Origin: an uncultured Lachnospiraceae bacterium
Lineage (GTDB): Bacteria > Bacillota > Clostridia > Lachnospirales > Lachnospiraceae
Assembly (NCBI GenBank): GCA_905236275.1
Contig: CAJOPI010000185.1
Location: forward strand, 1-12,460
Direction: 5' to 3'
Length of the DNA stretch: 12,460 nucleotides
How positions within the stretch are numbered: the stretch's first letter is position 1; each line of letters starts with the position of its first letter. Made by a program: the position numbers and the translations under genes. The notes under the pieces were generated by a model, which was given only the letters and a program-made list of their open reading frames with translations, was not told where the DNA came from and did not search any database. Shown piece by piece: positions 2,478 to 12,162 of this stretch.

Positions 2478-3650
2478 TTATTTTTTACTATCCAAAGCTA
2501 TATTCAATATATCAACGACAGCCTTTGCATCAAGCTTGATATAGTGTCCAACGCTTCCGTTTCTCGTAGCACGTTTTGCCATCTCTTCAAAATCCTTATC
2601 ATCTATATTCAGTTCTTTAAGGCTTGTAGCTATTCCCAGTTTTTTATAGAATCCTTCAAGTCTGTCCGCAAGGATATATGCTCTCTCTTCTTCCTTGTAA
2701 TCATGCGCATCGACCCCGAATACCCTTGTTGCTAAAAGTGCCGCTCTCCAGGGCTTAACCTTAGCCGCATATCTGACCCATGCAGTTATGACAACTGCCA
2801 TTCCTTCACCGTGGGTTATATTGTATTGGGCTGAAAGTTCGTGTTCTATCCTGTGTGAACCCCAGTCAGCCGCTCTGCCGGCATCAAGGAAATTATTATG
2901 TGATACGCTTGCAAGCCACTGGATCTCTCCCCTTGCATTTATATCCTGCGGATCCTTCTTTAATCTGTCAGCATTTAATAGAAGCGCCCTTACTGCTCCT
3001 TCTATAAGATAATCCGTTGTATCGGAATATTTTGTATCCGAAAAATATCTTTCAAGGAGATGTGTAAGAACATCCGCAATACCTACTGCCGTCTGGTACC
3101 AGGGAAGCTTCACCGTGAAGCGCGGATTCATTATGGCGAACTTAGGAATTATCCTGTCGTCTTCAAAGCCGAGCTTCCATTCTCCGTTTGAAATTATTGC
3201 TGCATTTGAGGTTTCAGAACCGCTTGATGCCGTTGTTGCAATAACACCTATCGGAAGCACCCTTTCCGGCAGAATACCCTTTTCAAAAAAGTCCCAGCTG
3301 TCGCCGTCATAAGGAATACCGATCGAAACTGCCTTAGCCGTATCGATAGAGCTTCCGCCGCCTACCGCAAGGATAAAGTCAACACCTGCCGACCTTCCTT
3401 CATCAACCAGTTTTCTTACCAGTGCGATATCGGGATTCGGAACAACCTCTCCGTTTTCAATAAGCTTTATACCTCTTTCCTCTGTTTCTTTCTTTATCTC
3501 ATCATAAATCCCGAGATCTTTTATAAATTCACCGCTGTATACGAGGAGGACTGAACTCGCCTTGTTTTCCTCTAAAAGTTCTCCTATCTGTTTCTCACTG
3601 TCCTCACCAAAAACTATTTTTGCCGGATTGTAATAATTAAATGCTATCAT
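2478..3650 (-). CDS. Iron-containing alcohol dehydrogenase, butanol dehydrogenase (YqhD/BdhA) type
   Basis: A cytosolic group III alcohol dehydrogenase of 390 residues, the usual family length, which reduces aldehydes such as butyraldehyde to alcohols with NAD(P)H. The N-terminal nucleotide-binding domain has the GGGSSIDTAK motif (97-106). The metal-binding residues are all visible in the helical C-terminal domain: D193, H197 (GIADVLTH), H266 and H280 (HRIEHELSA...THGEG), with the same spacing as E. coli YqhD D194/H198/H267/H281. GGAG lies 8 bp upstream of the start codon. The gene is 93 bp after metQ on the same strand with only a weak hairpin between, so read-through is possible, but no metabolic link to methionine uptake is evident. 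Substrate and cofactor preference cannot be assigned. Confidence 0.93.
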   Translation of the reverse strand: MIAFNYYNPAKIVFGEDSEKQIGELLEENKASSVLLVYSGEFIKDLGIYDEIKKETEERGIKLIENGEVVPNPDIALVRKLVDEGRSAGVDFILAVGGGSSIDTAKAVSIGIPYDGDSWDFFEKGILPERVLPIGVIATTASSGSETSNAAIISNGEWKLGFEDDRIIPKFAIMNPRFTVKLPWYQTAVGIADVLTHLLERYFSDTKYSDTTDYLIEGAVRALLLNADRLKKDPQDINARGEIQWLASVSHNNFLDAGRAADWGSHRIEHELSAQYNITHGEGMAVVITAWVRYAAKVKPWRAALLATRVFGVDAHDYKEEERAYILADRLEGFYKKLGIATSLKELNIDDKDFEEMAKRATRNGSVGHYIKLDAKAVVDILNIALDSKK

Positions 3651-3743: not shown

Positions 3744-4649
3744 TCATTTTAACGAAACTACTGCTCCATCGTATGTGCTTTCGATATAATCTTTGATCTC
3801 ACTTCCCTGAAGAACTTCTACAAGAGCCTTAACTGCTGCGTCATTTTCTTTCTCAGGGCTTGTTGCGATAATATTTCCGTAGGTCTGGGCTGCAAGTCCG
3901 TCATTAGCTTCAACTGCAAGCGCCTGACTTACATGAAGTCCGCCCTCAATTGCGTAGTTACCGTTGATGACTGCAACATCTACATCGGGAAGTGCTGCAA
4001 CAAGCTGCTCAGGTGCAAGCTCCTTGAATTTGATATTCTTAGGATTCTCAACGATATCTGCTACAGTTGCTTCGATACCTGCATCATCCTTAAGTGTAAG
4101 AAGGCCTTCCTGTGCGAGAAGAAGAAGCGCTCTAGCCTCGTTTGTCACGTTATTCGGAACCGCTACAAGTGCTCCGTCCGGGAGATCTTTCAGATCTGTT
4201 GTCTTTCCTGCATAAATTCCGAAAGGCTCGTAGTGGATCGCTCCTACAGATACGAGATCCGAACCGTTCTCTTCATTGAACTGATCAAGATAAGGAACGT
4301 GCTGGAAGTAGTTTGCATCAAGGCTTCCCTCGATAACGCCTGTATTAGGAGTAATGGAATCTTCAAGCTTAACGATTTCAAGATCGATACCCTGCTCCGC
4401 AAGTATAGGCTTTGCAACTTCAAGTATCTCCGAATGAGGAGTGATATTTGCTCCAACCTTGATCTTTACTGTCTCAGTACTTTCGGATGCAGCTGAGCTC
4501 TCTGCGCTCTCGCTCGCTCCCTCAGTTACCGGCTCTGCTTTCTCTGCCGCAACCTTCGCTTCTTCAACCTTTGCTGTTGCTGATCCGCATCCGACTGTTC
4601 CAAATGCAACTATTGCTGCCAATCCTGATGCTATAAGTCTTTTTCTCAT
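3744..4649 (-). CDS. metQ: Methionine ABC transporter substrate-binding lipoprotein MetQ (NlpA family)
   Basis: The extracellular, membrane-anchored binding protein that delivers methionine to the MetNI transporter. The N-terminus is a lipoprotein signal: MRKR, a hydrophobic stretch and a lipobox ending VGC with the lipidated Cys at 21. A Ser/Glu/Ala-rich linker follows to about residue 60. The NlpA fold then starts at VKIKVGANITPHSEIL and includes NYFQHVPYLDQF, VGAIHYEPFGIY, VPNNVTNEARALLLL and VAVINGNYAIEGGL, all typical of MetQ. The 301-residue length fits the family. GGAGGA lies 6-8 bp before ATG 4649. Unlike a standard metNIQ operon, about 400 bp separate it from metI, with a terminator and a separate promoter between, which allows separate and higher expression. 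The ligand could be D- or L-methionine or a derivative. Confidence 0.93.
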   Translation of the reverse strand: MRKRLIASGLAAIVAFGTVGCGSATAKVEEAKVAAEKAEPVTEGASESAESSAASESTETVKIKVGANITPHSEILEVAKPILAEQGIDLEIVKLEDSITPNTGVIEGSLDANYFQHVPYLDQFNEENGSDLVSVGAIHYEPFGIYAGKTTDLKDLPDGALVAVPNNVTNEARALLLLAQEGLLTLKDDAGIEATVADIVENPKNIKFKELAPEQLVAALPDVDVAVINGNYAIEGGLHVSQALAVEANDGLAAQTYGNIIATSPEKENDAAVKALVEVLQGSEIKDYIESTYDGAVVSLK

Positions 4650-4720: not shown

Positions 4721-4749
4721 ACTATAACCGCTCTAAATCATTTCGTAAA
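4721..4749 (-). promoter_or_regulatory. Promoter of metQ
   Basis: On the minus strand TTTACG (4749-4744) and TATAGT (4726-4721) are separated by 17 bp. The -10 matches 5 of 6 bases and the -35 4 of 6. Transcription would start near 4714. The weak -35 fits a promoter that needs an activator. Confidence 0.6.
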
Positions 4750-4767
4750 ATACATGAAATCTATTGT

Positions 4768-4788
4768 CTGTTATAAGAATTACCTATA
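4768..4788 (-). promoter_or_regulatory. MET-box-like site upstream of metQ
   Basis: On the plus strand CTGT runs into a TATA-N9-TATA site (17 bp, 4772-4788) containing CCTATA at its right end. The same CTGTTATA-N7-CCTATA string occurs at 7110-7130 and 8200-8220. The site ends exactly 22 bp upstream of the predicted -35 and is centred near -66, the usual LysR-type activator position. The streptococcal MET-box (recalled as TATAGTTtnaaACTATA) has the same TATA-N9-TATA layout. The regulator is inferred. Confidence 0.55.
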
Positions 4789-4827
4789 GCCGTAAAAAAA
4801 ATCTAACCGTATTTAACGATAAGAAAC

Positions 4828-4859
4828 AAAAAGGAAGCTTCCTCAGCTGCTTCCTTTTT
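4828..4859 (-). terminator. Intrinsic terminator between metI and metQ
   Basis: AAAAAGGAAGC (4828-4838) and its perfect complement (4849-4859) form an 11-bp stem with a 10-base loop. On the minus strand it is followed by TTTTTGTTTCTT, a good U tract. The plus-strand side also ends in T6, so it may be bidirectional. It would end the metNI transcript before the metQ promoter. Confidence 0.8.
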
Positions 4860-4968
4860 TCTGCTAATAGATATAACACTCGCGGATTCTCAATCGACTC
4901 AAAATTCCCTGTGCCCTTTATGCCTGTGTGCTCATTCCCCATAAATTTATAAATCATGGTTATATCAT

Positions 4969-5009
4969 AATACGACCAATTAAGATTCTGATTCCGAATT
5001 GGTCGTATT
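4969..5009. repeat. Long perfect inverted repeat just after metI
   Basis: AATACGACCAATT (4969-4981) and AATTGGTCGTATT (4997-5009) form a perfect 13-bp dyad around a 15-base loop, 38 bp past the metI stop. On the minus strand no U tract follows, so it is more likely an mRNA-stabilising 3' hairpin or an operator-like element than a main terminator. In the rest of the 398-bp gap between metI and metQ I see no further gene. Confidence 0.55.
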
Positions 5010-5047
5010 TTCTATCATATTAACCAAGTTAAAATCCGAAACATTTC

Positions 5048-5701
5048 TCACGCCTTTCTTGAACTCTTCGAAAGCTTTGTTCCTGCTGCCTGAATGAGCA
5101 TTACCATGATCACAAGCATTGCGACCGTAGTCCAGAGAACCGTTTTTTCATATCTGTAATAACCATACTGCAGGGCTATCGCACCAAGTCCGCCGCCTCC
5201 GATAACTCCTGCCATTGCAGAATATCCGAGAACCGTTGCAACATTTATGGCAGCGCCGAGGATAAGTGACGGAACTGCTTCAGGCAGTATGAAATGTAAA
5301 ACTATGAAAAACGGGCTTGCACCCATTGAGTCCGCTGCTTCAATGATACCGGACGGCACTTCATTTAATGATGACTCCACCATCCTTGCAATGATCGGAA
5401 CCGCACCTATAGTCAGCGGCACGATCGAAGCTACCGTTCCGATTGATGAACCAACGATAAGTCTCGTCAACGGGATCATCAGTACAAGGAGTATGAGAAA
5501 AGGGAGCGATCTTAAGATATTTACTATCGTTCCGAGTATCAGATTCAGACCCCTGTTCTCAAAAAGATGTCCTTTTGCCGTTGTATATAAAAGTACTCCT
5601 AACGGAAGTCCTAAGATATAAGCAAAGAGCGATGAGAAAAATGTCATCTGAAATGTCTCCACTATTCCTTGTAAAATTGCCTCTTTAATATATTCATCCA
5701 T
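5048..5701 (-). CDS. metI: Methionine ABC transporter permease MetI
   Basis: The 217-residue inner-membrane permease of the MetNIQ importer; two copies form the channel. About five hydrophobic segments are visible (around 15-40, 55-80, 85-105, 135-165 and 188-207). The cytoplasmic coupling loop that contacts MetN is recognisable as EAADSMGASPFFIVLHFILP (121-140), followed by the conserved glycine-rich SAMAGVIGGGGLG (161-173). The length is that of the family. The start codon lies 2 bp after the metN stop and its ribosome site GGAGG is inside the last metN codons, so translation of the two is probably coupled. Confidence 0.95.
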   Translation of the reverse strand: MDEYIKEAILQGIVETFQMTFFSSLFAYILGLPLGVLLYTTAKGHLFENRGLNLILGTIVNILRSLPFLILLVLMIPLTRLIVGSSIGTVASIVPLTIGAVPIIARMVESSLNEVPSGIIEAADSMGASPFFIVLHFILPEAVPSLILGAAINVATVLGYSAMAGVIGGGGLGAIALQYGYYRYEKTVLWTTVAMLVIMVMLIQAAGTKLSKSSRKA

Positions 5702-5703
5702 AC

Positions 5704-6738
5704 TTAGCTCACCTCCACTATACTCAGACCTTTTCCTCTGAAATAATCAAGAACGACCTTACTGTCTTCTTCGTCCTTTGGCAGCTCAACTACCATCTGT
5801 CCAAATCCGATACCACCCACGCTCTTTGTATTTGCACTTAAAATATTGACCTTTCTGCCCGTTTCCTCTACAAGATTTGATATGAAAGGTTCATTAGCCG
5901 ACTGCCCGTCAAAAGCAATCCTCACAATATGGCTGTCAGTTGATGAAGCATCAAAAGGATTTACACTGTCAGCCTCCCCGTTAGGCAGGAGAAGATATTT
6001 GGCGGCAGCAGATTTTGGAGAAGTGAAAACCTCCGTCACGTTTCCGATTTCCGCAAGGACTCCCTTTTCAATGATCGCCACGCGGTCACATATTTTCTCA
6101 ACCACCGACATTTCATGTGTGATGATTATTACTGTAAGTTTTCTCGTCCTGTTTATCTCTTTTAAGAGTTCAAGAATCTCCTCTGTGATCTTCGGATCTA
6201 GTGCCGAAGTAGCTTCATCGCAGAGAAGCACCTTCGGATCCGAAGCCAGCGCTCTCGCAATGGCAACCCTCTGTCTCTGACCTCCCGAAAGCTGTGCCGG
6301 ATAGGAATTCTTTTTATCCTCAAGTCCTACTACCTTAAGCATGTCAAGAGCTGTCTTTTTTCTCTCCGCACGCGGGATCTTTGCAATTTTAAGAGGTATC
6401 ATCACGTTTTCAATAACGGTTTTCTGCATGAGCAGATTGAAGCCCTGAAATATCATCGAGATAGACTGTCTTGCCTTACGGAGCTCTTTTGGAGCCAGTT
6501 TTCCCAAATCTTCCCCGAAAAAGCGGATTTCACCTTCGTAGATCTCTTCAAGGCGGTTAAGTGTCCGCACAAGTGTAGACTTTCCCGCACCGCTCATTCC
6601 TATTATTCCGAAAATTTCGCCTTCATGAATATCAAGGCTTATATCCTTAAGAGCTGTAAACTCCTTATTGTCGTTTTTATATATCTTCGTTACATTTTTC
6701 AATTCGTAGACTTTTTTTTCATCATTCATAATACTCAT
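5704..6738 (-). CDS. metN: Methionine ABC transporter ATP-binding protein MetN with NIL domain
   Basis: The cytoplasmic ATPase of the MetNIQ importer, 344 residues. ABC motifs are complete: Walker A GMSGAGKST (47-55), Q-loop Q98, signature LSGGQ (150-154), Walker B LLCDE (171-175), D-loop SALDP and H-loop H208. A NIL domain follows at about 266-344; in E. coli MetN this domain binds methionine and inhibits transport when the internal pool is high, so feedback control is likely here too. GGGG abuts ATG 6738 directly but stands 9 bp from an in-frame ATG at 6729, so the true start may be 6729, giving 341 residues. It forms a tight pair with metI (2-bp gap). Confidence 0.95.
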   Translation of the reverse strand: MSIMNDEKKVYELKNVTKIYKNDNKEFTALKDISLDIHEGEIFGIIGMSGAGKSTLVRTLNRLEEIYEGEIRFFGEDLGKLAPKELRKARQSISMIFQGFNLLMQKTVIENVMIPLKIAKIPRAERKKTALDMLKVVGLEDKKNSYPAQLSGGQRQRVAIARALASDPKVLLCDEATSALDPKITEEILELLKEINRTRKLTVIIITHEMSVVEKICDRVAIIEKGVLAEIGNVTEVFTSPKSAAAKYLLLPNGEADSVNPFDASSTDSHIVRIAFDGQSANEPFISNLVEETGRKVNILSANTKSVGGIGFGQMVVELPKDEEDSKVVLDYFRGKGLSIVEVS

Positions 6739-6744
6739 CCCCGA

Positions 6745-6761
6745 TATAGCTTTTCTTTATA
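6745..6761 (+). promoter_or_regulatory. Weak inverted copy of the MET-box-like site before metN
   Basis: TATAGCTTTTCTTTATA has the TATA-N9-TATA layout and is followed by ACGA, so it resembles the three better sites when those are read on the minus strand. It ends only 6 bp before the metN start, in the region of a possible -10 (TATAAA on the minus strand, 6761-6756). If functional at that place it would block and not activate. This could be a chance match in AT-rich DNA. Confidence 0.25.
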
Positions 6762-6770
6762 ACGATCTGT

Positions 6771-6814
6771 AAAAGTAAAGGCAGGAACCGAATGGGGTAC
6801 CTGCCCTGACTTTT
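6771..6814 (-). terminator. Terminator-like hairpin in front of metN
   Basis: GGCAGG-A-ACC (6779-6788) pairs with GGT-A-CCTGCC (6795-6804) around a short loop, with one mismatch in the stem, and AAAAGT/ACTTTT arms can extend it. On the minus strand TTTACTTTT follows. It lies inside the last codons of the decayed reading frame and 33 bp before metN. It may end the upstream transcript or act as an attenuator in the metNI leader; no S-box or T-box aptamer was found with it. A smaller hairpin (AGTCTC/GAGACT, 6823-6840) stands just upstream. Confidence 0.6.
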
Positions 6815-7062
6815 GAAAATACAGTCTCGAATGAGAGACTTAATTGGCTCAGTAAAATATTTGATTGACCAAGCTCTGTAAGAGCCTCCTTCTCGTCATA
6901 CTGAAGGTTCGCCGGATCAAGTCCGAGCCCCTTCACATCACTTATAAAGAAAAGTGAGCAGAGCTGGCATGAATTTGTGGTTGAAATTGCATGTGCATAA
7001 AGAACCGCATCCTCCTCTGTTTCTATTTTTTTGTTTTTCTGAATTTGCTTTATCTGAGTTAG

Positions 7063-7091
7063 ATGATACAGCGACTTAAAGCTCCTGTCTA
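7063..7091 (-). promoter_or_regulatory. Promoter of the metNI leader unit
   Basis: On the minus strand TAGACA (7091-7086, 5 of 6) and TATCAT (7068-7063, 5 of 6) stand 17 bp apart, placing the start near 7056. It lies inside the nominal 5' end of the decayed gene and may be the main source of metNI transcription. Confidence 0.6.
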
Positions 7092-7132
7092 ATTTCAAAA
7101 AATTATCAACTGTTATAAGTTCAGCCTATATC
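7087..7132. repeat. Direct repeat, copy 1 (46 bp, promoter region)
   Basis: This segment matches 8177-8222 at 40 of 46 positions, including 22 identical bases at its left end. It includes most of the predicted -35 box and the whole MET-box-like site. Five of the six differences lie inside the 7-base centre of the site. The copies are 1,090 bp apart and bracket the palindrome-rich gap plus the esterase gene. Confidence 0.8.
7110..7130 (-). promoter_or_regulatory. MET-box-like site upstream of the metNI leader unit
   Basis: CTGT precedes TATA-N9-TATA (7114-7130) on the plus strand with the CCTATA end. It stands 22 bp upstream of the predicted -35 and is centred near -66. It matches the metQ site at every position of CTGTTATA-N7-CCTATA. 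Confidence 0.55.
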
Positions 7133-7217
7133 TGCAATAAAAAAATTACAGGGGCAGAAAACATAGACACACAAGGTCTTCCAATCCGCGCGCGTCGCAT
7201 CATACGCACAAAGTGTG
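7133..7217. other. Non-coding stretch with a GC-rich patch
   Basis: No supported gene. A short CG-rich patch (CCGCGCGCGTCG, 7187-7198) stands out against the AT-rich surroundings, followed by a small CACA/TGTG dyad next to the large palindrome. No function can be assigned. Confidence 0.3.
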
Positions 7218-7266
7218 TTTTTTAATTCATAGGGGATTGCAACGCAAATTCCTATGAATTAAAAAA
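7218..7266. repeat. 16-bp perfect palindrome with T tract outside-left and A tract outside-right
   Basis: TTTTTTAATTCATAGG (7218-7233) pairs perfectly with 7251-7266 around 17 bases, in which TTGC-AAC-GCAA can form an inner stem. The T run is in the 5' arm and the A run in the 3' arm on both strands, the reverse of an intrinsic terminator. A cruciform or small mobile palindromic element is more likely. Confidence 0.7.
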
Positions 7267-7269
7267 GAA

Positions 7270-7292
7270 GATAGCCTGATCAACAGACTATC
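7270..7292. repeat. Small hairpin GATAG/CTATC
   Basis: GATAG-C-CTG (7270-7278) pairs with CAG-A-CTATC (7284-7292) with one internal mismatch and a 5-base loop. It directly follows the 16-bp palindrome and is part of the structured block. Confidence 0.45.
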
Positions 7293-7310
7293 CCATTGAG
7301 AAATATAAAA

Positions 7311-7365
7311 TGATGCCAGGGTCATTGTGGAAATTGCGTAGCAATGGAGCAATGCGTGGGCATCA
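7311..7365. repeat. Nested hairpin element TGATGCC...GGCATCA
   Basis: Three concentric stems are visible: TGATGCC/GGCATCA (7311-7317 with 7359-7365), CATTG/CAATG (7323-7327 with 7350-7354) and ATTGC/GCAAT (7333-7337 with 7341-7345) with a 3-base tip. Concentric pairing like this suggests a folded RNA or a REP-like repeat. Confidence 0.6.
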
Positions 7366-7395
7366 GTTGGGGGCAAAATGCCTTTTGCCCCCAAC
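7366..7395. repeat. 13-bp perfect hairpin of G5/C5 core
   Basis: GTTGGGGGCAAAA (7366-7378) pairs perfectly with 7383-7395 around the loop TGCC. It abuts the nested element with no spacer and lies 35 bp beyond the esterase stop codon. No U tract follows on the minus strand, so it is not a standard terminator but could stabilise the 3' end of the esterase mRNA. Confidence 0.7.
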
Positions 7396-7430
7396 ATCAT
7401 AAAATTAATAAAATATAATAGGAAGCATTT

Positions 7431-8072
7431 TCAAGCGGCATTAGCCATCAGCACTGTTTCCGTTAACTTCTGCCATACCGCATCCGCAAATATCCTATGT
7501 GAATAATCATCAAGATGCTCATTATCTATTTCACTGGACTTCGCATAATCCGATGCTGCAAGAAAGTTCACACCTCTCCTGTCAGCTATCGTCCTGTATA
7601 CTTCTTTAAGTTTCTTACTTGTTGCTACCGACTCAGTTCCGAATTCGGGATCTTTCTCCGGTCTCCACACATCTTCACCAAGGTCTATCGGTGATATAAG
7701 AAGAATTTTTTCAACCGGAAGATATTTTTGAACGATATCCAGACATCGTTCTATTCCCTTCCCTATAGTGTGGGCCGAAACATTATAAACACTCTTGCAG
7801 TCATTCGTTCCAAGCATGATTATCGCATAATCAAGAGGTGTCTGGCTTTCCAGAATTATCGGAAGCGTTGCCACTCCCTTTCTTCCGGCTCTCAGCTCGT
7901 CTTCAAATACGGTTGTCCTGCCGCAAAGTCCTTCCTCGATAACCCTGATCTCATCACTCTTCCCATCCAATATGCTTGTCCACCTGACACCCCACGGATA
8001 TCTCTTAAAAGGCGAAGTTCCGGGGATAAGACCCCATGTATTAGAATCGCCAAATGCAAGTATTTTTTTCAT
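7431..8072 (-). CDS. SGNH/GDSL hydrolase, arylesterase/acyltransferase (MsAcT-like) type
   Basis: A 213-residue cytosolic esterase of the SGNH superfamily with no signal peptide. Block I is FGDSNTWG with nucleophile S10, block II includes G48 in EEGLCGRTT, block III is GTND (88-91), and block V is D183-N-E-H186 as the catalytic Asp and His. The RYPWGVRW, EEGLCGRTT, LPIILESQTPLD and IIMLGTNDCKS segments closely recall the Mycobacterium smegmatis acyltransferase/arylesterase MsAcT. Start 8072 is preferred over the in-frame ATG at 8087 because GGAGG stands 6 bp before it. The natural substrate is unknown; small acyl esters are typical. Its upstream region duplicates the promoter of the metNI leader, including the MET-box-like site, so it may be co-regulated with methionine uptake. 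Confidence 0.9.
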   Translation of the reverse strand: MKKILAFGDSNTWGLIPGTSPFKRYPWGVRWTSILDGKSDEIRVIEEGLCGRTTVFEDELRAGRKGVATLPIILESQTPLDYAIIMLGTNDCKSVYNVSAHTIGKGIERCLDIVQKYLPVEKILLISPIDLGEDVWRPEKDPEFGTESVATSKKLKEVYRTIADRRGVNFLAASDYAKSSEIDNEHLDDYSHRIFADAVWQKLTETVLMANAA

Positions 8073-8152
8073 ACAGCACCTCCTCATTTCATCGCTTAGT
8101 TCAGAATGATACTGTCTCTATAAAATCTTTCTAATATCCTTACCTGTCATTA

Positions 8153-8181
8153 ATCTTATAGCATATTGATTTTTCAGTCTA
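8153..8181 (-). promoter_or_regulatory. Likely promoter of the SGNH hydrolase gene
   Basis: By alignment with the other copy of the direct repeat, TAGACT (8181-8176) is the -35 (4 of 6). The -10 would be TAAGAT (8158-8153, spacer 17) or TATAAG (8160-8155, spacer 15). Both elements are weak, as expected for an activator-dependent promoter. The leader would be about 75 bases. Confidence 0.45.
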
Positions 8182-8222
8182 ATTTCAAAAAATTATCATC
8201 TGTTATATCTTTTCCCTATATC
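8177..8222. repeat. Direct repeat, copy 2 (46 bp, promoter region)
   Basis: This segment matches 7087-7132 at 40 of 46 positions. Here it lies in front of an intact esterase gene, whereas the other copy lies over the 5' end of the decayed gene. It is more likely a duplicated promoter block than transposon ends, since both copies hold ordered promoter parts. Confidence 0.8.
8200..8220 (-). promoter_or_regulatory. MET-box-like site upstream of the SGNH hydrolase gene
   Basis: CTGTTATA-N7-CCTATA on the plus strand, TATA-N9-TATA at 8204-8220, ends 22 bp from the predicted -35, as at the other two sites. Its 7-base centre differs from the other direct-repeat copy while the ends are unchanged, which suggests the ends are the conserved part. 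Confidence 0.5.
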
Positions 8223-8539: not shown

Positions 8540-10306
8540 ATGAAGAAAATTGGAATTGGATATGAAAACTACAAAGATTTTGTCGATAATGATATGTATT
8601 ATATCGATAAAACGCTTTTAATCCGCGATATCCTTGGAAAAGGCGGCAAGGTGAGCCTCTTCACGCGTCCCAGACGTTTTGGAAAGACACTTGCTCTTTC
8701 TACTATCCGCACATTTTTTGAACTTGAATACGACTATGACGGAAATATCATAGATAAACATCGTTATTTTGAGGGAAAGAAAATTATGCAGTGTGGGGAT
8801 TCTTTTCTCTCAAAAATGGGGAAGTTCCCTGTGATAAAACTTTCTCTTAAATCTGCAAAACAACCTGATTTTAATACTGCTATATTAAAACTTCGTGAGG
8901 AAATAGTAAATGAATTCAGGCGGCATATTTACCTTCTTGAATCTGATTTTTTGACAAATAACGATAAAGAATTATTCAGGGAACTTTTGAACGGAATTGT
9001 CACTTGGAATAGAAAGTTCAACGATATTTCAGATGATGAAGAAATGAAAAAGGCAATAAAAGCTGAATATGGCAAGTATTCAACTTCTTTAAAAACCCTG
9101 TCCGAGTTGCTTCAAATGCATCATAAAGAAAATGTTATTATACTGCTGGACGAATATGACGTTCCACTTGAGAATGCTTACTACAACGGTTTCTATAAAG
9201 AAATGGTCGATTTTATCCGCTCACTTTTCGAGTCAGCCTTAAAGACTAATGATGCACTTGAATTTGCTGTAGTTACAGGCTGTCTGCGGATTAGTAAGGA
9301 AAGCATATTTACAGGGTTAAATAATTTGGTTGTAAACTCTGTCAGAAGCACAGATTTCGGAGAATACTTTGGCTTTACCCCGGAAGAGACCTTAAATATG
9401 CTTGATGATTATGGACTTGAAAAAAATCACGATATAGTCAGGGAATGGTATGACGGATATCTTTTTGGCGATAGTGAAGTTTATAATCCATGGAGTGTCA
9501 CACAATATGTATATGAACATATCAATGCTCCGGTCCGCCTTGCCGAACCTTACTGGTCTAATACATCATCAAACACAATAATAAAAGACCTGATCAGTAA
9601 TGCGGATGAAACTGCAAGGGAAGAACTTGACCTTCTTATAAATGGCGGTACCGTTGAGAAACGTATACATGAAGATATTACTTATGATGATATACATACA
9701 GAGCCTGATAATCTCTGGAATTTTCTCTTTTTCACCGGTTATATGAGAAAAGTTTCCGAACGAGCTGTAGGCGAAGACATATATCTAACTATGTGCATTC
9801 CCAACAGAGAAATAAGAAGTATCTACAGTCATCAGATAAGTCTCTGGTTTGAGAACATTGTGCGTGCGACCGATCACAACTCTTTCCGTCAGACAGTCTT
9901 AAATAAAGACACACAGACCATGGAAGACTATTTATCAGACCTCATGGAGAAAAGCATCAGTACTTTTGATTCTTCCGAAAGTTTTTATCATGGTCTCCTG
10001 CTCTCTCTCCTTTACGGAGTACCCCACTACGTTCCAAAGTCCAACCGCGAAGCAGGCGACGGTCGCCCCGATATAGTCCTCTGCCCTAACCGTCCGAAAG
10101 ACCCGGCTTACATTTTTGAATTTAAGGTAAGGAAAAAATTCAATGAAATGGACGATGGCATTCAGGAAGCTTTTAAGCAGATAAAAGATAAGCGCTATGA
10201 AGACGGTGTTTTAGAGGACGGCTACGCAGTAGTTCTCTCTTATGCCATATGTTTTTGTAAAAAAAGCTGCATTGTCAGATTGAAACCAGAAGGAGCATCG
10301 CACTAA
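8540..10306 (+). CDS. AAA-ATPase-like protein with C-terminal PD-(D/E)XK nuclease domain
   Basis: A 588-residue protein of the AAA-ATPase-like family (Pfam AAA-ATPase_like joined to PDDEXK_9, the former DUF1703 type), common in many copies in Lachnospiraceae and Bacteroidales. The N-terminus MKKIGIGYENYKDFVDNDMY and YIDKT are typical. The P-loop is RPRRFGKT (43-50) and Walker B is ILLDEYD (201-207). The central part includes EWYDGYLFG and VYNPWSV. The C-terminal nuclease-like fold shows D511 (GRPDIV) and E527-x-K529 (FEFKV), the PD-(D/E)XK triad. The role of the family is not established; a nucleic acid-acting or defence function is a guess. GGAGG stands 9 bp before the start. The gene is monocistronic, ending in a terminator whose loop holds the stop codon. 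Confidence 0.9.
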   Translation: MKKIGIGYENYKDFVDNDMYYIDKTLLIRDILGKGGKVSLFTRPRRFGKTLALSTIRTFFELEYDYDGNIIDKHRYFEGKKIMQCGDSFLSKMGKFPVIKLSLKSAKQPDFNTAILKLREEIVNEFRRHIYLLESDFLTNNDKELFRELLNGIVTWNRKFNDISDDEEMKKAIKAEYGKYSTSLKTLSELLQMHHKENVIILLDEYDVPLENAYYNGFYKEMVDFIRSLFESALKTNDALEFAVVTGCLRISKESIFTGLNNLVVNSVRSTDFGEYFGFTPEETLNMLDDYGLEKNHDIVREWYDGYLFGDSEVYNPWSVTQYVYEHINAPVRLAEPYWSNTSSNTIIKDLISNADETAREELDLLINGGTVEKRIHEDITYDDIHTEPDNLWNFLFFTGYMRKVSERAVGEDIYLTMCIPNREIRSIYSHQISLWFENIVRATDHNSFRQTVLNKDTQTMEDYLSDLMEKSISTFDSSESFYHGLLLSLLYGVPHYVPKSNREAGDGRPDIVLCPNRPKDPAYIFEFKVRKKFNEMDDGIQEAFKQIKDKRYEDGVLEDGYAVVLSYAICFCKKSCIVRLKPEGASH

Positions 10307-10438: not shown

Positions 10439-10536
10439 TACGGTGAAATGTCCGCAAATGAAAAGTCTGTATGGAGCTTGCTGTTTGCATCAGGCTATTT
10501 AAAAACAGTGGAAACAAGGGATATTGAAGCAAAATT
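10439..10536 (+). pseudogene. Remnant of a second AAA-ATPase-like gene
   Basis: In the frame that runs into hipB, YGEMSANEKSVWSLLFASGY followed by LKTVE matches the conserved region just before the nuclease domain of AAA-ATPase-like proteins. The intact neighbour has DNLWNFLFFTGYMRKVSE at the equivalent place. The frame is open back to 10352, but the earlier part shows no family resemblance, and everything after about residue KL (10536) is replaced by the hipB promoter. It looks like a small fossil of a gene mostly deleted. Fusion to HipB is unlikely, because hipB has its own promoter and ribosome site. Confidence 0.6.
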
Positions 10537-10550
10537 GATGTTTATAATAA

Positions 10551-10579
10551 TTGACATATTTGGTATATGTATATATTAT
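10551..10579 (+). promoter_or_regulatory. hipBA promoter with internal palindrome
   Basis: TTGACA (10551-10556, perfect) and TATTAT (10574-10579, 5 of 6) stand 17 bp apart. The palindrome ACATAT-TTGGT-ATATGT (10554-10570) lies within the -35 and spacer, the right place for an operator. Binding by HipB, as in other hipBA operons, is inferred. Confidence 0.75.
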
Positions 10580-10615
10580 TATAAATACAAACTATATTTT
10601 TTTACCGGAGGAAAT

Positions 10616-10933
10616 ATGAGAAGGAAAAATCCTGTAATAATGCCAAAAACAAAGAAAAAAATTGCCCAGGTTGGCGATCAGATAAAACTTGCCCGGCTCA
10701 GACGCAAATACACAGCTGAAATTATAGCTGAGAGAGCAGGAATAAGCAGGGCAACTTTATGGAAAATAGAAAAAGGTGATCCGGGCGTAGCTTTTGGAAT
10801 TTATGCAAAAGTTCTCAATGCTATAGGATTAGGAGATGACATCCTTCTTTTGGCAAAAGATGATGAACTAGGTCGTGCGCTTCAGGATGCAGAACTTTTG
10901 AACAAGGGAAAAAAGAAGGACATTGACAAATGA
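10616..10933 (+). CDS. hipB: HipB-like antitoxin, Xre-family DNA-binding protein
   Basis: A small 105-residue helix-turn-helix protein. The Xre-type HTH covers about residues 19-75: IKLARLRRKYTAEIIAERAG, then ISRATLWKIEKGDPGVAFGIYAKVL. The basic N-terminus and the charged C-terminal tail lie outside it. In HipBA systems the protein binds and neutralises HipA and represses the operon. The start at 10616 is supported by GGAGG 5 bp upstream and by the promoter at 10551-10579; an in-frame upstream extension to 10448 is the AAA-ATPase-like fossil and would begin before the promoter. The 3' end overlaps hipA by ATGA, a typical antitoxin-toxin coupling. Confidence 0.88.
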   Translation: MRRKNPVIMPKTKKKIAQVGDQIKLARLRRKYTAEIIAERAGISRATLWKIEKGDPGVAFGIYAKVLNAIGLGDDILLLAKDDELGRALQDAELLNKGKKKDIDK

Positions 10934-12162
10934 GGATTTACGAAATTCATGCCGGATGGTCTGACGTAGCAGAAAAAATCGGCGATATATTTATAGAAAA
11001 TTCAAGAGGTCGTGAGATCATATCTTTCGCTTATGATGATAAATGGTTATTAGATAATCCTTCATTCATGCTTGACCCAGATATATTAAATGTCAGAGGA
11101 CGCCAATATATTCCGGATAAGAAACTATCTTTCGGCTTTCTTTCAGATACAGCCCCTGACAGATGGGGACGGAAACTAATTGACCGGAGAGAAAGAATTG
11201 ATGCGAAAAAAGAAAAACGTCCTATACGAACGCTTTTTGAGAGTGATTACATTTTGGGCGTTAATGACAAAGGGAGAATCGGAGCCTTACGCTATTATGA
11301 TGACGAGAGGAAGGTTTATATGTCTGAAAGGGATATGCTTTCAGCCCCGCCGATAACAGAATTAAGAAGGCTTGAACAGGCTTCGCTTAATCTTGAAAAA
11401 GGCGATGACCCCGATGAAGAGAAATGGTTCCGAGATCTGATTGAACCCGGTTCTTCACTGGGTGGAGCAAGACCAAAGGCAAATCTGCTTGATGAAAGAG
11501 GAAATATGTGGATTGCCAAGTTCCCGTCCAAAAATGATGATTATAATGTTGGTGCCTGGGAGATGGTTCTGCATGATCTACAGCAAAAATGTGGTATTAC
11601 TGTTCCTGATGCCATGCTGATGAATGTCTCCGACGCAGGAAGTACATTTTTGGTAAAACGCTTTGATCGTAATGGTGAAAAACGTATTCATTTTGCCTCA
11701 GCAATGACAATGCTCGGTGAAACCGATAATTCAACAAATGAAATCAGCTATATTGATATCGCGGAAGTTATCGAAAGCATTTGTAATGAACCTGAGAAGA
11801 ATCTCCATCAGCTTTGGGACAGGATGGTTTTCAATATTTGTTCTTCCAACACTGACGATCATCTAAGGAATCATGGATTTCTATATAGCGGAAGTGCCTG
11901 GGAATTGTCACCTGCTTATGATGTAAACCCTTCAACTGATAAGGACAGACTTTCTCTTCTTATTGCTGATGATAATACAAAAGATTTAGATGCAGCTTTA
12001 GAAGTTTCTGATTATTTCAGATATTCAAAAAAAGAAGCTCGTGATCGTATAAAAGAAATACAAGATATCATCAAAAAAAACCGTAAAATTTTAGCGAATA
12101 AGTATCGAATTCCCAGATCAGAGCAGAAAAGCATGGACTCAGCTTTTGAAATGTCTTTCTGA
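10930..12162 (+). CDS. hipA: HipA-like serine/threonine kinase toxin
   Basis: A 410-residue HipA-family protein. In E. coli, HipA phosphorylates glutamyl-tRNA synthetase and halts growth; the target here is unknown. The N-terminal domain (about 10-125) has FAYDDKWL and FGFLSDTAPDRWG as in the coupling domain. The kinase core has the Gly-rich loop GSSLGGARPKA (174-184) with Ser at 175/176 near the autophosphorylation position, a Lys in WIAKFPS (197), the catalytic loop NTDDHLRNHGF (307-317) with D309, and the metal-binding D331 in SPAYDVNPS. These correspond to E. coli HipA D309 and D332, so the enzyme appears intact. Start ATG overlaps the hipB stop by 4 bp; AAGGA lies 9 bp upstream. The length is slightly less than the usual 430-440. 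Confidence 0.92.
   Translation: MRIYEIHAGWSDVAEKIGDIFIENSRGREIISFAYDDKWLLDNPSFMLDPDILNVRGRQYIPDKKLSFGFLSDTAPDRWGRKLIDRRERIDAKKEKRPIRTLFESDYILGVNDKGRIGALRYYDDERKVYMSERDMLSAPPITELRRLEQASLNLEKGDDPDEEKWFRDLIEPGSSLGGARPKANLLDERGNMWIAKFPSKNDDYNVGAWEMVLHDLQQKCGITVPDAMLMNVSDAGSTFLVKRFDRNGEKRIHFASAMTMLGETDNSTNEISYIDIAEVIESICNEPEKNLHQLWDRMVFNICSSNTDDHLRNHGFLYSGSAWELSPAYDVNPSTDKDRLSLLIADDNTKDLDAALEVSDYFRYSKKEARDRIKEIQDIIKKNRKILANKYRIPRSEQKSMDSAFEMSF

Follow-up and report, generated by a model that had tools for sequence, protein, structure and literature searches.

A MET-box-like promoter site before sulfur-amino-acid genes of a Lachnospiraceae bacterium and its association with a LysR family

Three spaced boxes at the metQ-metNI locus

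The stretch of DNA analysed here (the window: 12,460 nucleotides, contig CAJOPI010000185.1 of the uncultured Lachnospiraceae bacterium GCA_905236275.1) carries on its minus strand the methionine-transport genes metQ and metNI and a gene for a GDSL esterase, each preceded by the same short box, which we read as the probable recognition site of a LysR-type activator. The original prediction, made from the letters of the window, had placed the motif CTGTTATA-N7-CCTATA before all three genes in one orientation relative to them, and exact copies do lie at 4768-4788, 7110-7130 and 8200-8220, with none elsewhere in the draft genome (G000; 2.51 Mb in 453 contigs, 81.5% complete). With up to three mismatches allowed, the window holds eight matches against 1.32 expected, a number reached in none of 200 shuffles, two of the eight being opposite-strand readings of the metQ and metN sites.

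The layout of the three promoters is constant, a 17-bp box being followed by exactly 22 bp, the -35 hexamer, 17 bp and the -10 hexamer. The predicted distance of 22 bp is therefore correct when measured from the 17-bp box, and the predicted centre near -65 agrees with our value of about -66 from the inferred start, the distance from the box centre to the end of the -10 being 60 bp. The hexamers themselves are weak and a scan for consensus promoters showed no excess (31 sites, compared with 31.7 in shuffles), so that the -35 and -10 assignments rest on conservation across species. At metQ and metN the box arms are TATAG-N7-TTATA over 17 bp, matching the outer arms TATAG...(C/T)TATA of the streptococcal MET box; the right arm at the esterase, ATATA, deviates from (C/T)TATA.

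The original argument that chance could hardly produce the sites stands with regard to the shuffles but not with regard to their independence. Of the 28 positions that follow the box, 26 are identical between the metN and esterase promoters, whereas metQ shares only 15 or 16 with either, and we judge from these sequences that the former two are not independent but products of duplication. Both also resemble the promoter of a gene for a 184-amino-acid (184-aa) protein on another contig, C269, where it stands intact behind a LysR gene. The segment before metN, originally called a metNI leader, turned out to be a promoter followed by a decayed piece of this gene: it matches the promoter of the C269 gene (72 of 85 bases identical) and part of its body (Table 1), the remainder having no BLAST match, and the open reading frame (ORF) at 6757-7098 accordingly holds a gene remnant. 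The box at 7110 probably began as that of the 184-aa gene. A structured RNA leader (S-box or T-box) was also considered for the upstream regions and was dropped, as no Rfam family matched the window at gathering scores.

As a probe of the whole genome, for which it had been proposed, CTGTTATA-N7-CCTATA was not predictive; both copies with one mismatch lie inside ORFs, and the 35 matches with up to two mismatches, compared with 41 for the reversed control, represent background. A better form of the motif would appear to be GnTATAG-N7-YTATAnC at fixed spacing to the -35 and -10.

Table 1. Features of the window that bear on the boxed promoters; the starts given for promoters are inferred.
Feature	Position	Strand	Details
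21-bp box GCTATAGGTAATTCTTATAAC before metQ	4770..4790 (17-bp core 4772-4788)	-	Motif match; 21-bp form from conservation
metQ promoter	4721..4749	-	-35 TTTACG (4749-4744), 17 bp, -10 TATAGT (4726-4721), start ~4714; spacing conserved in other species
metQ, NlpA/MetQ lipoprotein	3744..4649	-	Pfam PF03180; TIGR00363 match below cut-off
Iron alcohol dehydrogenase (FeADH), downstream of metQ, without own box	2478..3650	-	Pfam
21-bp box GATATAGGCTGAACTTATAAC before metNI	7112..7132	-	By homology, probable former box of 184-aa gene
metN promoter	7063..7091	-	-35 TAGACA (7091-7086), 17 bp, -10 TATCAT (7068-7063), start ~7056
Decayed remnant of 184-aa gene	6885..7017	-	117/133 bases identical to intact C269 copy
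metN, methionine ABC transporter ATPase with NIL domain	5704..6738	-	Pfam; TIGR02314 match below cut-off
metI, permease	5048..5701	-	Pfam; NF008049 above cut-off
21-bp box GATATAGGGAAAAGATATAAC before esterase	8202..8222	-	Motif match; right arm ATATA deviant
Esterase promoter	8153..8181	-	-35 TAGACT (8181-8176), 17 bp, -10 TAAGAT (8158-8153), start ~8147
GDSL hydrolase (esterase)	7431..8087	-	Pfam PF13472

The esterase more likely starts at 8072, behind an AGGAGG read by eye. The interval from the metN promoter to the esterase gene contains an inverted repeat (7218-7266) with 23-nt arms, a 3-nt loop, 87% complementarity and flanking T and A runs. The plus strand carries, at 154-1146, a 330-aa protein with a pyruvate kinase barrel domain alone, the C-terminal pyruvate kinase domain giving no match; at 8540-10306, beyond the esterase promoter, an AAA-ATPase-like protein with a PD-(D/E)XK_9 nuclease domain; and at 10448-12162 a small protein that by eye resembles a helix-turn-helix regulator and, behind it, a HipA-like gene (HipA_C), the two being a likely pair of the toxin-antitoxin type.

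Recurrence of the site and its LysR neighbour

After inspecting box-anchored promoters of relatives, we wrote a composite site, TATAR-N7-YTATA-RC-N5-ATA-N8-RWATT. In the window's own genome it is matched exactly at metQ, at metN, at the 184-aa gene (box at C269:3102-3118, between this gene and LysR) and at metY (box at C171:1612-1628, behind an Rrf2 gene), and with one mismatch at the esterase. The loose box TATAG-N7-YTATA occurs there at 20 places, of which 16 are others than metQ, metN, the 184-aa gene and metY, and at least 13 of these 16 are inside ORFs.

Among 61 genomes, exact composite matches were found in ten besides our own. Thirty stretches were fetched from relatives, most of them picked from composite matches and mainly within the genus, and 29 contain the composite at up to two mismatches. 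The gene behind it, typically 35-174 bp downstream, is metY in seven genomes; in others it is metQ, metE (G044), a C26 hydrolase (G001), an SDF symporter, a cyclase-family gene, a family-3 binding protein, a pyridoxal phosphate (PLP) enzyme with a 184-aa-type gene behind it (G008, G016) or a 459-aa protein that matches no Pfam family and is glutamate-cysteine ligase-like by eye only. At four composite sites the mechanically called ORF starts at or inside the site. Two relatives, G006 and G028, have one of two metQ copies boxed.

The box is strongly enriched around one family of LysR genes. For this comparison we took the best 80 of 581 related loci in named genomes (883,737 bases), which are the closest and not a random sample; 40 are titled Lachnospiraceae and the remainder are mainly other Clostridia. 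The strict box TATAG-N7-CTATA occurs 39 times in these loci, compared with three for its reverse, and the composite 27 times at up to one mismatch (none reversed) and 51 times at up to two (one reversed). All 39 strict boxes are intergenic, that is, outside ORFs of at least 90 aa. Twenty-six of them could be assigned to a single unambiguous gene within 250 bp, the other 13 being left out; the profile of these 26, made without the composite, shows a G two bases before the box in 23 and a C two bases after it in 23, an element GnATT ending at +23 (G in 18, A in 25, T in 23 and T in 24), a weakly conserved -35 from +23, a G at +44 in 19 and a -10 of the form TATnnT at +46.

The next genes downstream of these boxes are metN, metQ, metY, the 184-aa gene, LysR itself, cysK-like genes, PLP enzymes and a few others. 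When a gene was counted as boxed if TATAR-N7-YTATA lay within 350 bp, genes with less than 150 bp upstream being left out, the boxed classes included metY (9/11), the 184-aa gene (5/5), metQ (6/22), LysR (9/81) and other PLP enzymes (2/18), whereas metI (0/15), FeADH (0/7) and other ATP-binding cassette genes (0/22) had no box; a scrambled control gave 0 or 1 per class. In G013, metY, Rrf2, PLP, LysR, metN, metI and metQ form a single cluster, with boxes TATAGGCTGAGGCTATA and TATAGTCTGAAACTATA before metY and metN and with LysR between metY and metNIQ.

Rrf2 genes adjoin metY or LysR in several of the loci, and two of 12 are themselves boxed, so that another regulator, for example an Rrf2 protein (CymR/IscR-like) such as that encoded before metY, might bind the box. 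We regard this as quite improbable, because the association observed is with LysR, and because such features as a position near -66, a T-N11-A palindrome and a further element beside the -35 characterise LysR activators. In addition, a passage of PMC5359408 reports that the streptococcal MET box was confirmed by promoter mutation for CmhR. Equally, the likeness of the metN and esterase promoters to one another and to that of the 184-aa gene might mean that a promoter segment was duplicated without regulatory meaning. This explanation is largely excluded, since metQ and metY share little with the metN and esterase promoters beyond box and spacing, other species have this box in front of the same genes, and an esterase homologue at locus L283 has the box within a different promoter.

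Homologues of the esterase, 35-56% identical, lie inside five of the 80 LysR loci. The homologue in L283 is the only one directly boxed; that in L265 is the second gene behind a boxed Rrf2 gene, those in L267 and L289 overlap the LysR start and that in L279 stands just before LysR, with no box nearby in these last three. The esterase thus probably belongs to the putative regulon.

The 184-aa CxxC protein (L014:777-1331, minus strand) has no Pfam match and only a weak YciW-related match in NCBIfam (28 bits, against a cut-off of 310), and its predicted fold is all helical with a mean pLDDT (predicted local distance difference test score) of 75.9. It is 89-92% identical in five other LysR loci, and a box precedes each of the 184-aa gene, metN and metQ in L320 and L321. 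Distant homologues in L080, L103, L106 and L107 have no box directly upstream. In L103, L106 and L107, metQ and the adjoining FeADH gene share one cluster with a 184-aa-type gene, a PLP enzyme and metN/metI, which suggests a common sulfur-compound pathway.

By far the best candidate for the regulator is the gene at G000:C269:3129-4052, which encodes a LysR protein. Three LysR matches were found in the genome, one of them a fragment at a contig edge. The C269 protein has the HTH_1 and LysR_substrate domains; compared with solved structures it found general LysR relatives only, and none of the best 25 of 47 matched NCBIfam models reached its cut-off. Matches to it (E <=1e-20) occur in 25 of 61 genomes, some of them forming a more distant clade at 40-43% identity.

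This LysR also co-occurs with the composite site. With a strong match set by us at 340 bits or more, the composite at up to one mismatch was present in 50 of 84 genomes with a strong LysR and in 36 of 211 others among 295 genomes of the order (p 3e-12, an optimistic value, as the genomes are related); without G000, G037 and G043, from which the composite was derived, the counts were 47/81 and 36/211. The reversed control gave 18/84 and 38/211 (p 0.51), so the 36 composite-bearing genomes without a strong LysR, being close to the control rate, include chance matches. Within the genus (37 genomes, LysR scored at 47% identity or more) the composite at up to one mismatch was found in 12 of 16 LysR-bearing genomes and two of 21 without.

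A second LysR clade of the genus (L098-L105), 39-43% identical, has no strict box in the fetched stretches. It groups, without strong support, with an lspA-side LysR of a Streptococcus-like genome and is possibly the counterpart of CmbR.

Several observations weigh against the interpretation of the box as the site of this LysR. The loose box alone is not enriched, with 23 occurrences in the own genome compared with 43 in the control and with counts below the reversed control in most of the 61 genomes, and the composite or a gene context is therefore needed. Some composite sites (G034, G035 and G006:C7) face a distant or unrelated gene or lie inside a long ORF. The comparison of metQ upstream regions that the original prediction had proposed shows the box recurring before metQ in other species, but the exact box stands before metQ or metN in just four of 33 metQ loci of relatives, and in the 80 LysR loci only 9/22 metN genes and 1/5 GDSL esterase genes are directly boxed. 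No composite match at up to one mismatch was found in 34 of the 84 strong-LysR genomes or, within the genus, in four of the 16 LysR-bearing genomes, and both positive LysR-less genomes of the genus likewise run counter to it; once nine genus genomes inspected beforehand are set aside, the comparison becomes 3/7 to 2/21 (p 0.08). Another LysR could be missing from a genome that is 81.5% complete. Two further points, concerning the streptococcal consensus and the LysR tree, are taken up below.

Comparison with the MET box, CmbR and the S-box

The consensus of the streptococcal MET box is given in a passage of PMC2627894 as TATAGTTTnAAACTATA. The exact form, TATAGTTTNAAACTATA, has no copy in the own genome, the first of the two adverse points, and we therefore call the sites MET-box-like and not MET boxes; exact copies of the consensus occur in four of 398 genomes of the phylum. 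One of these genomes, G351, which its sequence leads us to regard as a Streptococcus, has TATAGTTTGAAACTATA before an M20 peptidase gene (Pfam) and before a pair of metB-like and csd-like genes (named by eye). At its locus L326 the box is followed by 22 bp, TAGACG, 17 bp and TAAAAT, the spacing of the window, while agreement is less good at the metB promoter, where the -10 is one base nearer and the -35 poor. The likeness to the MET box noticed originally is thus borne out for the arms and the promoter spacing, short of the full consensus.

The best LysR of G351 scores 439 bits against the family, is 44% identical to the C269 protein and is nested in a clade of seven rows, starred in our tree, whose other six members (G014, G037, G044, G053, G059 and G063) are non-streptococcal. 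The C269 protein groups with that of G013. That it falls into a different subclade from the Streptococcus-like LysR, in a tree with several open forks, is the second adverse point. Site and protein would seem to work like MtaR and to be homologous to it, though the protein is not necessarily its strict orthologue.

According to passages of PMC2627894, PMC5359408 and PMC7058034, the MtaR/MetR/CmhR regulators of Streptococcaceae share with the present system a LysR-family protein, a 17-bp palindrome with TATAG...CTATA arms and metQ as a target, and in both cases a riboswitch is left for metK, SMK there (PMC5359408) and SAM (S-adenosylmethionine) here. The differences are that the TTTnAAA centre of the palindrome is not kept, that the host is clostridial with its LysR in another subclade, and that the predicted targets here include the 184-aa gene, the GDSL esterase and metY.

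SAM riboswitches are found in 38 of the 61 genomes, and the one found in the own genome is upstream of metK. metK is present in 25 of the 30 riboswitch loci that were read, among them all 19 from the genus (nine further genus matches were unread), so that in the genus the riboswitch goes with metK. What precedes the uptake and sulfhydrylase genes in the own genome is the LysR box. The S-box riboswitch described for clostridia in a passage of PMC2940859 likewise controls methionine-related genes in other clostridia, but it is an RNA element, of a kind that Rfam did not detect in the window.

The same box and LysR family could also answer to cysteine with the logic of CmbR/CysR-like regulators rather than to methionine. 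CmbR, the cysteine LysR of S. pneumoniae (PMC5131005), belongs to the same protein family and serves an overlapping pathway, and the predicted targets extend beyond methionine to cysK-like genes in L262 and L283 (with a PALP domain for L262), the family-3 binding protein, the SDF symporter and the C26 hydrolase. However, metN, metQ and metY dominate among the targets, joined by metE in G044 and a metH-like gene (by eye) in G063; the operator given for CmbR in a passage of PMC5131005, GYGATAAAAAWWAYTTATMAC, differs from our box, and CmbR is described there as a repressor; and our tree places the lspA-side LysR of the Streptococcus-like genome outside the family, albeit with a long branch. We therefore consider control by cysteine unlikely, if the most serious of the alternatives.

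A predicted methionine switch and its meaning

The box is a real, conserved regulatory site, best read as the mark of a LysR regulon of the MET-box-like kind that comprises sulfur-amino-acid genes. With a probability of roughly 0.8, the three boxes are recognition sites of a LysR-type activator of such genes, a counterpart of MtaR/MetR/CmhR, with the C269 LysR as the most likely regulator. What the original prediction said of an activator of methionine genes is supported by the enrichment of the box around one LysR family, by its recurrence before methionine and cysteine genes and by the membership in that family of a LysR from a MET-box-bearing, Streptococcus-like genome, with the motif form, the leader and the independence of the sites amended. 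Among the papers listed in a search that did not extend to RegPrecise or most of the subscription literature, none describes, by its title or the beginning of its abstract, an MtaR-type regulator or a MET box for Lachnospiraceae.

In the mechanism that we propose, a LysR dimer would hold the palindrome GnTATAG-N7-YTATAnC near -66 and a second dimer would contact the conserved GnATT next to the -35. When methionine is short, homocysteine or a related intermediate may serve as co-inducer, by analogy with streptococci, in which homocysteine is the trigger of MetR/MtaR binding according to a passage of PMC7058034; with the co-inducer bound, the regulator would assist RNA polymerase in engaging a promoter whose -35 is weak. 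The predicted targets in the own genome are metQ-FeADH, metNI, the GDSL esterase, the 184-aa gene beside LysR, and metY.

A passage of PMC5359408 ascribes S-boxes to the methionine genes of Bacillales and Clostridia and has the streptococcal mechanism arise after the split from other Firmicutes. Our data suggest otherwise, as the box, its spacing and the LysR family are also present in Lachnospiraceae and other Clostridia. There is, in our estimate, an even chance that the MET-box LysR switch is a widespread system of Bacillota and not a streptococcal invention, that in this genus it controls sulfhydrylation and the uptake of methionine and cysteine, the SAM riboswitch being reserved for metK, and that the regulon identifies the 184-aa CxxC protein and the GDSL esterase as new components of the metabolism of sulfur amino acids. 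The predicted regulator, site and regulon are now directly testable, and two genes of unknown role, those of the 184-aa protein and the GDSL esterase, are linked to sulfur metabolism.

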